Shown: positions 13,095 through 18,126 of the stretch, piece after piece
Position numbering within the stretch: the first letter of the stretch is position 1
How the letters are laid out: every line of letters starts with the position of its first letter
DNA from: Oscillospiraceae bacterium
GTDB taxonomy: Bacteria > Bacillota > Clostridia > Oscillospirales > Ruminococcaceae
Direction of reading: 5' to 3'
Assembly (NCBI GenBank): GCA_009784625.1
Contig: WRBI01000005.1
Span: 1-64,000 of the forward strand
DNA length: 64,000 nt
The notes under the pieces: model-generated
Database searches by the model: none
What the model saw: only the letters and a program-made list of their open reading frames with translations
Told to the model about the DNA's origin: nothing
Translations under genes and position numbers: made by a program

Positions 13095-13123
13095 TTGACA
13101 AGCTAGTGACCTGGATGTATAAT
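13095..13123 (+). promoter_or_regulatory. perfect consensus sigma70 promoter, rightward
   Basis: TTGACA (13095-13100) - 17 nt - TATAAT (13118-13123). Confidence 0.85.
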
Positions 13124-13177
13124 GGCCGAAACAGGTAGTTGACTACCGGTAGTTGACTACCTGTTTCGGCCATTATA
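13118..13177. repeat. 60-bp near-perfect palindrome between convergent promoters
   Basis: tataatggccgaaacaggtagt-tgactaccggtagttg-actacctgtttcggccattata; 22-bp perfect arms plus central actaccggtagt. Confidence 0.95.
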
Positions 13178-13200
13178 CTTCATGCATCATTATTTGTCAA
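13172..13200 (-). promoter_or_regulatory. perfect consensus sigma70 promoter, leftward (toward the XRE repressor)
   Basis: Reverse strand TTGACA (13200-13195) - 17 nt - TATAAT (13177-13172). Confidence 0.85.
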
Positions 13201-13600
13201 GTTGAATTTCTGCTATTGTGGTTTTGGACACAGCCCTATTAATTAGCGCTTTAATTTCTGTATATGCGTCAAGGTCTTCAGACTGTAAAAGGCGTAATTC
13301 AGAGATGAGCTGACATTCTGCGTTCGTTAGGTAACTGGGTGTGAGTCTTCGAATCATCTCCATTGGTATTTGTTCTTTTAAAGATTGCTTGAAATCTTCG
13401 ACAGATATTCCGAATCCGTCAGCAAGCTTTTCTAAAGTGATATCCTTGGCTGTATGCAACATATCTTGAGAAGCCAGACGGGAAACGTGGTAGTACCCCA
13501 GCGACGGAATCCTCGTTTTAATAAAACTGCTTAAATCTTTGCATCCAACTTGATTGGCAAGGATTCTTACAATGTGAGATTGCCTGCTCGTATTTTTCAT
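13190..13600 (-). CDS. XRE/HTH-like regulator
   Basis: 136 aa; GYYHVSRLASQDMLHTAKDITLEKLADGFGISVEDFKQSL resembles a cI/Cro-type HTH. Confidence 0.55.
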   Translation of the reverse strand: MKNTSRQSHIVRILANQVGCKDLSSFIKTRIPSLGYYHVSRLASQDMLHTAKDITLEKLADGFGISVEDFKQSLKEQIPMEMIRRLTPSYLTNAECQLISELRLLQSEDLDAYTEIKALINRAVSKTTIAEIQLDK

Positions 13601-13615
13601 AGTAAAGCCTCACTT

Positions 13616-13666
13616 TCACTTGTACATGTGATTGTATCACTTTAAGCTTCGAAGTGCAAGATAAAA
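13616..13666 (-). promoter_or_regulatory. leftward promoter with overlapping operator-like dyad
   Basis: Reverse strand TTGCAC-N17-TACAAT; dyad TCACttGTACatGTGA at 13616-13631. Confidence 0.55.
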
Positions 13667-13717
13667 ACGCAAATGCATGTGATTTTTTTAGCTTTAATTG
13701 TGTCTTAGAGCACTTCG

Positions 13718-13746
13718 TTGACATCCTTTGCAAATCCATTTATACT
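13718..13746 (+). promoter_or_regulatory. near-consensus promoter upstream of the large structured RNA candidate
   Basis: TTGACA (13718-13723) - 17 nt - TATACT (13741-13746). Confidence 0.75.
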
Positions 13747-13751
13747 TAATT

Positions 13752-14380
13752 TTAAGCAATATAATAGCCACACTTGCTCTTGAAAGGGAATGTCTCGCTT
13801 GAAATAATCGCAAATGCGATTGCGATTCTAGGCTCGCGCCGTGACTTTGCAGGTGCTAACTTACAGCCCTTGCGCTATATTAGAATCAGAGCTGTGTGTT
13901 GGCGAAAAAAACACATCAAATAATCGCATAGCTAACCTTGATATCTACCTCTGCTTTTAGAGGATGATATATGCCGTCACTAGACGGAAGATGCACATTG
14001 AAAAAGAACCCGGGATGCGGGGAGTATAATCCTGCCAAATGAAACCCCCTTTAAACGTATGTGGCGTCTGTCGCATACGCAGCGAGCGACCATGGGGATT
14101 GCTACGTTGAGCTGAGACCATCGGAGTAACGATGCGAGCCATAGAGAGCTTTCCTAAGCGCGTCAATTCAAGCCCGCGTTTTGCTACGACCTGATAAGGG
14201 GCATAATAATACTTCTGCCTAGAAGCCTGCGGCTTGGGCAGCCTGTCGACGAATAACAGGGTCTCTGGGAATCCGATGAGCGAAAGCGATAAGTCGGCTC
14301 ACAGACATGTGACTGGTGGTTGGCGTCACCTAGCATTTTGGCAAGCCCGCATCCCGGGGTAATGAGATTAAATAGGGTGC
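13752..14380 (+). ncRNA. candidate large ornate structured non-coding RNA (about 600 nt)
   Basis: No credible ORF on either strand; promoter directly upstream; many local helices plus perfect 13-bp long-range pairing 14009-14021 / 14346-14358 (CCCGGGATGCGGG / CCCGCATCCCGGG). Confidence 0.65.
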
Positions 14381-14415: not shown

Positions 14416-14509
14416 TTGGTGATAGATAGGGCGGCGAAGAGAACCGGCAAGAAATGAGAAATCAACCAAACACCGGAGAAAAAACTTCGCCGCCTCATTG
14501 TGTCACCAA
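14416..14509 (+). promoter_or_regulatory. long interrupted stem-loop in the leader of the 352-aa ORF
   Basis: TTGGTGA(14416)/TCACCAA(14503), GGCGGCGAAG(14430)/CTTCGCCGCC(14485), CCGG(14444)/CCGG(14473). Confidence 0.6.
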
Positions 14510-15913: not shown

Positions 15914-16105
15914 ATGAGCATCAATCAAGTTGAGTCTAAAAAGTTAGTATATACGGTCAAAGAGGTTTCTGAGATGTTAGGGTTGAGCTTGCGTTCGACC
16001 TACAATCTTTGCAATGACCAAAAGGATTTCAAAGTGCTCCGGTTAGGCGAAAAATCTATCCGAGTTAACAAGGAATCTTTTGATAACTGGTTTTTAGGCT
16101 TATAA
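15914..16105 (+). CDS. excisionase / helix-turn-helix DNA-binding protein
   Basis: 63 aa, LVYTVKEVSEMLGLSLRSTYNLCND...LRLGEKSIRVNKESFDNWF, upstream of integrase. Confidence 0.8.
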   Translation: MSINQVESKKLVYTVKEVSEMLGLSLRSTYNLCNDQKDFKVLRLGEKSIRVNKESFDNWFLGL

Positions 16106-16123: not shown

Positions 16124-17563
16124 TTGGCATCCATAATTAAACGTGGAAAAACATATTCTGTTGTTTTCTACGCAAAAGACGAAGAGGGCGTAAGCAAACA
16201 AGTGTGGGAAAGTGGATTATCCCACAAGGAAGCAAAAGCTCGCAAGCTGGAAATTGAGTCCAGAAAACTCGATGGTACATTTGCTAACCCCACCAAGCTC
16301 ACAGTAGGGGCGTATCTTGAAGAGTGGTTAAGCTATTACAAAAAGAAAGGCAATGCTTATTCGACCTGCACAATGGTTGAAGGTATTTTGCGCAATCACA
16401 TTATCCCGACGTTTGGCGAAAAGAAACTTCAAGAATTAACTTCGAAAGAAGCGGAAGACTTTTTTCTTGATTTAAAACAAACGCGCCATGCGAAAGGCAA
16501 TTACAGGTATACCTTGTACAGTGATAATGAACTGCCGTTTTTGTCAAAGAACACCATCCGACATATCTATATCTATTTCAACATGGCACTTAATAAGGCG
16601 GTTGAGTGGAAGTACATAGCTGGCAACCCAATCACTTTTGACCCGCCGGAATCGGAGTCTAACCACCGTGTGGCATGGGACGAGGAAACTCTTTTAGCGG
16701 CTTTAGATGAAGTGAAGGACCCAATGCTACACCTTTGCTTGCATCTGGCTTTTGTCGGTTCCATGCGGTCCGGCGAAATCTCCGGGTTAACATGGGATTG
16801 CGTCAACTGGCAAGAAGAGAACATGACAATTAATAAAATTGTCCAACGGGTGAAGAAAAGAGACTTGGACTACTCTCCAGATAACCCACCGCTACTGGTT
16901 TTCCCCAACGCAATTGGCACTCGTGAAACCGATGACATTAAAAGCTGCCTTATCCTTAAAGGACCAAAGACTCCAAAGAGCAGACGTGCAATTTACATGA
17001 CCGGACCCCTAAAACAGGAATTGCTCAAGCGATGGCAATTGGTCAGTAAGCGAATGGCTGTGCTTGATGAAGAGTACCATAATCACAATCTTGTAGTCTG
17101 CTTAGAGGACGGCAGACCTGTCGAACCTAAACTGATTGCCAAGTGGTTCAAACTCTTCATCAAAAAGCATGGTGGAGTATTCCCCGACGTAACACTCCAC
17201 AGCCTGCGGGCCACCAGCACTACTTACAAGCTGGTGTTGAGTCACGGGGACATCAAAGCTGTACAAGGGGATACCGGCCATGCGAACGCCAAGATGGTTA
17301 CCGACATCTATGCCAAGATTCAAGACAAGAATCGAAAGAAGATGGCCCAAGCGTTGGAAAAGGATTTCTACAAAAATCAGCCAGCACAGACAACGCCGGC
17401 AATAAAGAGCGAAGTGGATGTTGCCAACCATATGCTTCTGCTCAAAAAGCTGGTTGAAAATCCACAGGGGTTAGAAATTCTGCTTGCCACCCTTGGCCAA
17501 CCCGTGGAAAACCACCCGAGCGCGTCCGAGTGTGGTATTAGCAAAGTATTAGCAAACGACTAA
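16124..17563 (+). CDS. tyrosine recombinase/integrase
   Basis: R...HxLR...H/W...Y catalytic layout: GSMRSGEISGLTW, TLHSLRATSTTYKL, GDTGHANAKMVTDIYA; N-terminal AP2-like arm and SAM-like domain. Confidence 0.95.
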   Translation: MASIIKRGKTYSVVFYAKDEEGVSKQVWESGLSHKEAKARKLEIESRKLDGTFANPTKLTVGAYLEEWLSYYKKKGNAYSTCTMVEGILRNHIIPTFGEKKLQELTSKEAEDFFLDLKQTRHAKGNYRYTLYSDNELPFLSKNTIRHIYIYFNMALNKAVEWKYIAGNPITFDPPESESNHRVAWDEETLLAALDEVKDPMLHLCLHLAFVGSMRSGEISGLTWDCVNWQEENMTINKIVQRVKKRDLDYSPDNPPLLVFPNAIGTRETDDIKSCLILKGPKTPKSRRAIYMTGPLKQELLKRWQLVSKRMAVLDEEYHNHNLVVCLEDGRPVEPKLIAKWFKLFIKKHGGVFPDVTLHSLRATSTTYKLVLSHGDIKAVQGDTGHANAKMVTDIYAKIQDKNRKKMAQALEKDFYKNQPAQTTPAIKSEVDVANHMLLLKKLVENPQGLEILLATLGQPVENHPSASECGISKVLAND

Positions 17564-17675: not shown

Positions 17676-17696
17676 ACAACAAAGCCATTTTCTTGG

Positions 17697-17770
17697 CGCG
17701 CTGGAAGGGATTCGAACCCCTGACCCCTTGATTCGTAGTCAAGTACTCTATCCAACTGAGCTACCAGCGC
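17697..17770 (-). tRNA. tRNA-Arg(ACG), CCA encoded at 17694-17696
   Basis: Reverse complement GCGCTGGTAGCTCAGTTGGATAGAGTACTTGACTACGAATCAAGGGGTCAGGGGTTCGAATCCCTTCCAGCGCG; anticodon ACG. Confidence 0.95.
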
Positions 17771-17810
17771 AAATTTTCAAAACAACCTTGTTTTTGCAGG
17801 GAGTGCATTA

Positions 17811-17849
17811 TTCGTAGTCAGACACTCTATCCAACTGAGCTACAAGCGC
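17811..17849 (-). pseudogene. 5'-half tRNA-Arg fragment
   Basis: Reverse complement GCGCTTGTAGCTCAGTTGGATAGAGTGTCTGACTACGAA, similar to the intact tRNA up to the anticodon loop, then diverges. Confidence 0.8.
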
Positions 17850-18126
17850 AAAGTCCGGACAACTCCCATACTATACCATCAACCACGAAAAAAGTCAATA
17901 GCTGAAAATATTATTTGACAAGTTATCGCGACGTGTGTTAGTGTGATAGTACACTAGTGTATATTGGCGACTCACCTGTAATCTTGAAAAAATAATAATC
18001 TGTTCACAGTTTGGTTATAATTTAAAGTTACAATAATTAACTGTACTATCTTTACTAGTGCGCTTTGCCCGCGTTGGGGCTAAAGTGATAAAATAAACTG
18101 TTTGTGCGCGATTACGGAGGCTTGCG

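Follow-up and report, generated by a model that had tools for sequence, protein, structure and literature searches.

Face-to-face promoters ahead of an xre-immA module: a probable maintenance/excision switch of an integrated element, with a layout shared among Clostridia

The window analyzed here, a 64,000-nucleotide stretch of contig WRBI01000005.1 (assembly GCA_009784625.1) from an Oscillospiraceae bacterium, carries two perfect-consensus promoters that face each other upstream of an XRE-family repressor gene (xre) and an ImmA-type protease gene (immA), which raises the question of whether the pair controls the integrated mobile element in which it lies. We propose, with a probability of roughly 65%, that this locus is the maintenance/excision switch of the element, P2-like in its action and built on an XRE-ImmA module. 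The evidence comes chiefly from the geometry of the promoters and from the recurrence of the same layout ahead of related modules.

The two promoters, P-right and P-left (table 1), are of the sigma-A type and score highest among the promoter-like sites of the 12 kb covered by the scan. As the preliminary description of this DNA had stated, they share one dyad axis, being symmetric about 13147.5 and exactly coaxial with a near-palindrome that takes in both −10 boxes; the −35 box of P-left lies, as also described, in the final codons (...Q-L-D-K-stop) of the leftward gene 13190-13600. The distance between the −10 boxes had been given as 60 bp, a figure that counts both boxes; the real gap is 48 bp (13124-13171). 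P-left feeds xre and immA and occupies the position of the xre-directed promoter in relatives. When start sites were assumed to lie 7 nt from the −10 box, the predicted starts of the two promoters were ~35 bp apart.

Table 1. Features of the promoter pair and its surroundings (positions within the window)
Feature	Position	Strand	Remarks
immA, ImmA/IrrE-type M78 metallopeptidase, 171 amino acids	12097-12612	-	PF06114 2.4e-13; PHROG 87 metallo-protease; HEIGH motif
xre, ImmR/DdrO-like XRE repressor, 135 amino acids	12622-13029	-	Pfam HTH_19/HTH_3
P-right (rightward, outward/escape promoter)	13095-13123	+	TTGACA-N17-TATAAT, 12/12; expected start ~13130
Near-palindrome coaxial with the promoter pair	13114-13181		31/34 positions complementary (68 bp)
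Overlap of the two predicted transcripts	13130-13165		predicted 36-nt hairpin at the 5' end of each RNA
Candidate operator copy 1, GGTAGTTGACTACC	13134-13147		GTAGT/AACT core like the GAAGTT/AACTTC motif enriched in relatives; predicted binding
Candidate operator copy 2, tandem duplicate of GGTAGTTGACTACC	13148-13161		
P-left (leftward, maintenance promoter)	13172-13200	-	TTGACA-N17-TATAAT, 12/12; expected start ~13165
Orphan gene, 136 amino acids	13190-13600	-	upstream of and codirectional with xre; 3' end holds the P-left −35; antisense to P-right
Second rightward promoter-like site	13718-13746	+	TTGACA-N17-TATACT, 11/12
First rightward gene of appreciable size downstream of P-right, 370 amino acids	14500-15612	+	no family
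Excisionase-like small helix-turn-helix protein	15914-16105	+	HTH_17/AlpA-like
Tyrosine integrase	16124-17563	+	adjoins tRNA-Arg 17694-17770

We addressed the conservation of this layout in two samples, one of XRE relatives from 299 genomes of the same family and one class-wide sample of 291 genomes searched with a profile of the XRE family, and scored promoters as face-to-face when both matched at least 10 of 12 consensus positions. In the family sample, such a pair was observed in 21 of 33 upstream regions, compared with 0.01 expected from dinucleotide shuffles, and in 3 of 389 upstream regions of other genes in the same loci. Four further pairs were scattered over the 480 kb of these loci, and two of them lay next to a further XRE gene or polymerase gene of this type. 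Among full-length XRE relatives, the pair was present in 17 of 29 same-family and 23 of 49 class-wide cases (40/78, window included), whereas only 1 of 40 control XRE genes, which matched in the N-terminal DNA-binding domain alone, carried it. The 40 face-to-face loci come from no fewer than 16 families of the class, a few near-identical copies included, and an M78 protease gene directly follows xre in 38. The window combines all three features of the module, namely a full-length XRE of the family, immA next to it, and face-to-face promoters. Since the layout is kept ahead of homologous xre-immA modules, the role of a switch, which the preliminary description had proposed for this locus, is likely. 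The genes faced by the opposing promoter were also recurrent: a Y-family DNA polymerase gene in 15 of the 40 loci, a RinA/DUF1492-like gene in 9, and a gene for an 86-amino-acid protein in 5, mostly accompanied by a second M78 protease. The frequency of the Y-family polymerase suggests a damage response.

To judge from their sequences, xre and immA form a repressor-protease pair of the ImmR/ImmA or DdrO/IrrE type, and the ImmR DNA-binding domain of ICEBs1 (7t8i) is among the best structural matches of the XRE family profile. XRE/M78 pairs are established as stress-released repressors that free prophages or transposons under stress (PMC7907104). We propose a switch in which P-left would drive production of the repressor XRE together with ImmA, the protease that antagonises it, thereby defining the maintenance state, and in which P-right would start a competing transcription programme heading to the xis/int end and antisense to 13190-13600. 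The two promoters would interfere mutually because both are of consensus strength and face each other, and XRE dimers bound to tandem 14-bp sites between the −10 boxes might set the balance. Under stress, ImmA would inactivate XRE, as in the studied XRE/M78 pairs, and the switch would be released.

The spacing of the promoters bears on how this interference would operate. In the 40 face-to-face loci the distance between the −10 boxes was mostly 25-34 bp (range, 21-54 bp), which places the window at the high end and, under the same assumption on start sites, puts the starts of the relatives ~12-21 bp apart. In published modelling the open complex spans −51 to +14 (PMC6593788). A footprint of this size at a spacing of 25-34 bp means that both promoters cannot be occupied at once, so that the sequences of typical relatives predict promoter competition, with mutual exclusion at initiation, and not collision. 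The starts in the window would be just far enough apart to allow both polymerases, and this locus resembles P2 more closely than it does its own relatives. The collision of polymerases expected in the preliminary description may therefore apply at most to the window locus itself.

The same locus is distinguished by its palindrome. Arms of this kind have a chance of ~1e-9 of occurring anywhere in the 64 kb. The 22-bp outer arms are perfect, as first described, and what mismatches remain further in are TG/TG, a consequence of the core being two direct tandem copies of the 14-bp near-palindrome GGTAGTTGACTACC; the finer description is thus a direct tandem repeat of a dyad within longer inverted arms. 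Locus-specific repeats were significant in 19 of the 40 face-to-face loci, where they are found in the promoter of xre and in the opposing one, in the stretch that separates the two, and in the leader of xre. The top enriched 4-mers in the relatives were CTTC, AAGT, and AACT, corresponding to a GAAGTT/AACTTC-like core that the GTAGTCAACTAC units of the window appear to resemble, and the palindrome is plausibly a repressor operator. Removal of one 14-bp repeat would leave a gap of 34 bp, inside the range of the relatives; tandem duplication of the operator would be a simple account of the outlier spacing of 48 bp. Operator half-sites did not recur in 398 family genomes beyond the window locus. 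An intrinsic terminator was considered at the palindrome, which a scan had flagged as terminator-like, and was rejected: ATTATACTTC, which follows it, forms no T-run, and both predicted starts fall inside the palindrome. Rfam matches on the palindrome were likewise discarded as sub-threshold and mostly to eukaryotic miRNA models, which score any long hairpin.

Several observations weigh against the locus being a maintenance/excision switch of this kind. About half of the relatives lack a face-to-face pair at the threshold used. Among the 40 loci that have one, no palindrome comparable to that of the window was found (its inter-promoter palindrome is 92% symmetric, the runner-up 54%, and the best symmetry among the 217 pattern-scan loci listed is 77% over 26 bp), the 48-bp gap of the window is likewise without a match in its relatives, and the operator-like repeats of the relatives reach into both promoters, whereas those of the window are confined to the center between them. 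Unlike in many relatives, no rightward gene lies within 1.3 kb of P-right (no open reading frame of at least 50 amino acids up to 14500); the window is an outlier in which a leftward orphan gene stands where the opposing operon should be. Finally, the promoter at 13718-13746 could drive the xis/int side without P-right. Around this site, a weak leftward promoter for 13190-13600 (TTGCAC-N17-TACAAT, 13659-13631) was observed back to back with it, and CGCAAATGC repeats end at 13676 and 13817; the interval 13631-13817 is a possible second switch.

The role of the rightward transcript is thus the weakest link: it may read to xis/int, exert antisense control of 13190-13600, or both. An excision function of P-right, in keeping with the maintenance/excision switch suggested in the preliminary description, is at most inferred, for the first 1.3 kb downstream of this promoter contain no gene in its direction and its transcript would be antisense to 13190-13600. 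These features, with the separate promoter at 13718, would suit a rival explanation in which P-right does not serve excision and mainly makes antisense RNA that, together with collisions, silences 13190-13600 and read-through into xre. We regard this explanation as unlikely, though deserving of consideration: the opposing promoter of the relatives often faces a real outward gene, and the scanned stretch showed no terminator by which a short antisense RNA would be delimited.

A comparably doubtful alternative concerns the occupant of the palindrome, which might be the product of 13190-13600 or a host factor and not XRE. The central confinement of the repeats is in keeping with such a site, and the flanking orphan gene could encode its own regulator. 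However, its product has no recognisable DNA-binding family: the earlier label of a helix-turn-helix gene found no support, since no Pfam, NCBIfam, or PHROG family was found above the cut-off and the fold model was poor (predicted local distance difference test score 49). The 14-bp unit, moreover, fits XRE-type operators and has the AACT core enriched in the family. Less probable still is that the palindrome acts mainly as RNA, with 5' hairpins that stabilise the transcripts or let them pair and with DNA binding secondary. The 36-nt overlap is indeed predicted to fold (−20.3 kcal/mol for the rightward RNA and −16.1 for the leftward one, z below −5), and the TG/TG mismatches of the DNA turn into G-U pairs in the rightward RNA only; yet any DNA palindrome here would yield such a hairpin, the start sites are assumed, and relatives with the same promoter layout are without a hairpin, so that it is no general requirement. 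That only P-left is used, P-right being a by-product of an inverted duplication of the P-left start region, is very improbable. A palindrome spanning both −10 boxes does mean that such a duplication would reproduce a −10; but the −35 at 13095 is situated beyond the palindrome and, although the two spacers differ, forms a perfect hexamer at the 17-bp distance, and face-to-face pairs without palindromes are common in the relatives.

Lysogeny promoters that face each other are a textbook feature of P2-like phages infecting Gram-negative hosts. The switches of P2 and 186 use this geometry, and in 186 transcriptional interference has been demonstrated experimentally (PMC7498355). The comparison with P2 drawn in the preliminary description was borne out, in that the −10 boxes of Pe and Pc in the annotated record of Peduovirus P2 (AF063097) are 49 bp apart, compared with 48 bp in the window, a distance within the P2/186-type range for opposing promoters (about 40-80 bp). 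P2 and the window also share a promoter that feeds the repressor, a −35 box within flanking coding sequence, and an integrase with an excisionase-like gene in the same element. In P2, however, cox heads the opposing operon and the record has O1 and O2 repressor sites at Pe, whereas in the window no gene faces outward, the repressor operon includes an ImmA protease, int is on the side of the opposing promoter, and the candidate sites lie between the promoters within the palindrome. The pR/pL pair of 186 (U32222) differs further, with 76 bp between the −10 boxes in the annotated record, a circuitry of CI, Apl, and CII, and no M78 protease in the annotated stretch. A Cox/Apl-type excisionase-regulator heading the opposing operon is absent in the window, where the first rightward gene begins at 14500 and the excisionase-like gene only at 15914. 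By analogy, the switch of the window would work like those of P2 and 186, minus the Cox/Apl operon head and plus an ImmA protease.

The nearest likeness in gene content is ImmR/ImmA of ICEBs1, in which the gene of an XRE repressor likewise precedes that of an ImmA M78 protease, again within an integrated element. The ICEBs1 promoters are reported to diverge and to lie ~130 bp from each other, with six regions bound by ImmR (PMC4207663), whereas those of the window converge and no divergent xis lies beside xre. DdrO/IrrE of Deinococcus also pairs an XRE repressor with an M78 protease, but controls a host stress regulon and is not an element switch. The RcoLS20-controlled promoters Pc and Pr of pLS20 resemble those of the window in combining an XRE regulator with two overlapping, opposed promoters on a Gram-positive mobile element; unlike those of the window, they coincide and point apart (PMC4207663). 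In TnSmu1 of Streptococcus mutans, the region upstream of immR was strongly induced on ImmR depletion (PMC10233336), and an opposing promoter would explain this RNA. A description of face-to-face promoters in XRE-ImmA modules was not found in the open-access literature searched, an absence that is no proof of novelty.

As an unbiased check, public bacterial genomes were scanned for perfect face-to-face pairs, which yielded at least 119 loci, mostly in Clostridia. In 46 of the 119 matches listed the pair feeds an XRE gene, and in 17 it precedes rpoB of Ruminococcus. The same pattern was found in 98 viral contigs, with 23 to 35 of them feeding an XRE gene depending on gene calling, and four XRE relatives from deposited gut phages all had the pair, which in three of the four (Ca. 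Heliusvirales) separates xre from a divergently oriented gene with the annotation "DNA polymerase". Opposed promoters also occurred in other contexts. The rpoB cases (L075, L077, L078, L089, L091, L096, L100, L101, and nine more) have perfect pairs 41-45 bp apart, and the opposed promoter at this essential RNA polymerase gene is conserved in many Ruminococcus genomes. Perfect pairs flank TetR-like genes in Pseudoflavonifractor and relatives (L084, L104, L116, L161) and GntR-like genes mostly in Chloroflexi/Anaerolineae (L094, L102, L129, L137, L183), both judged by eye from the first residues, and the layout may thus recur with other regulator families. At L064, L072, and L120, related xre genes or pairs were observed beside serine recombinase-like genes (MKQSDKITALYCRLSRDD...); elements of other kinds may thus be under the control of this module as well.

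The element itself is seen in part, for the window begins at the contig start and the left end of the element is missing. The window's open reading frames that were searched, with the left end cut in this way, yielded no recognisable phage structural gene, and no DNA match to the locus was found in 11 genomes of the genus, in plasmids, or in viral contigs. Nor was a relative of the 13190-13600 protein detected in the 299 family genomes or in viral contigs. Beyond the intact tRNA-Arg beside the integrase gene, a second, 43-bp segment (17810-17852) matches its 5' half at 91% identity, which would fit the displacement of part of the tRNA gene and its replacement on integration. Near the contig start, 589-1893(+) encodes a 434-amino-acid RRXRR and HNH protein, an IscB-like nuclease, and the ~590 bases upstream of it could hold a guide RNA.

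Taken together, these results are of wider interest for the layout, which is widely shared, than for the single window locus. Spacing that is clustered at 25-34 bp across at least 16 families, in contrast to diverging operators, suggests that competition between the promoters is itself under selection. We put forward, as an evenly balanced proposition, that about half of the family's XRE-ImmA modules, in Clostridia and their phages, carry a face-to-face switch in which open complexes cannot coexist and a protease-released repressor is linked to a Y-family DNA polymerase or a phage regulator; such switches would form a class apart from those of P2 and from the back-to-back switches of ICEBs1, and the copy in the window would have moved to P2-like spacing through the tandem duplication of its 14-bp operator. 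The best-studied XRE-ImmA element, ICEBs1, was reported as divergent, whereas near-perfect face-to-face promoters were repeatedly observed here. Their natural variants in spacing (21-54 bp) suit the study of a spacing-driven shift from mutual exclusion to collision, and the layout provides a simple sequence signature by which little-known clostridial prophages and integrative elements can be searched for their control point.
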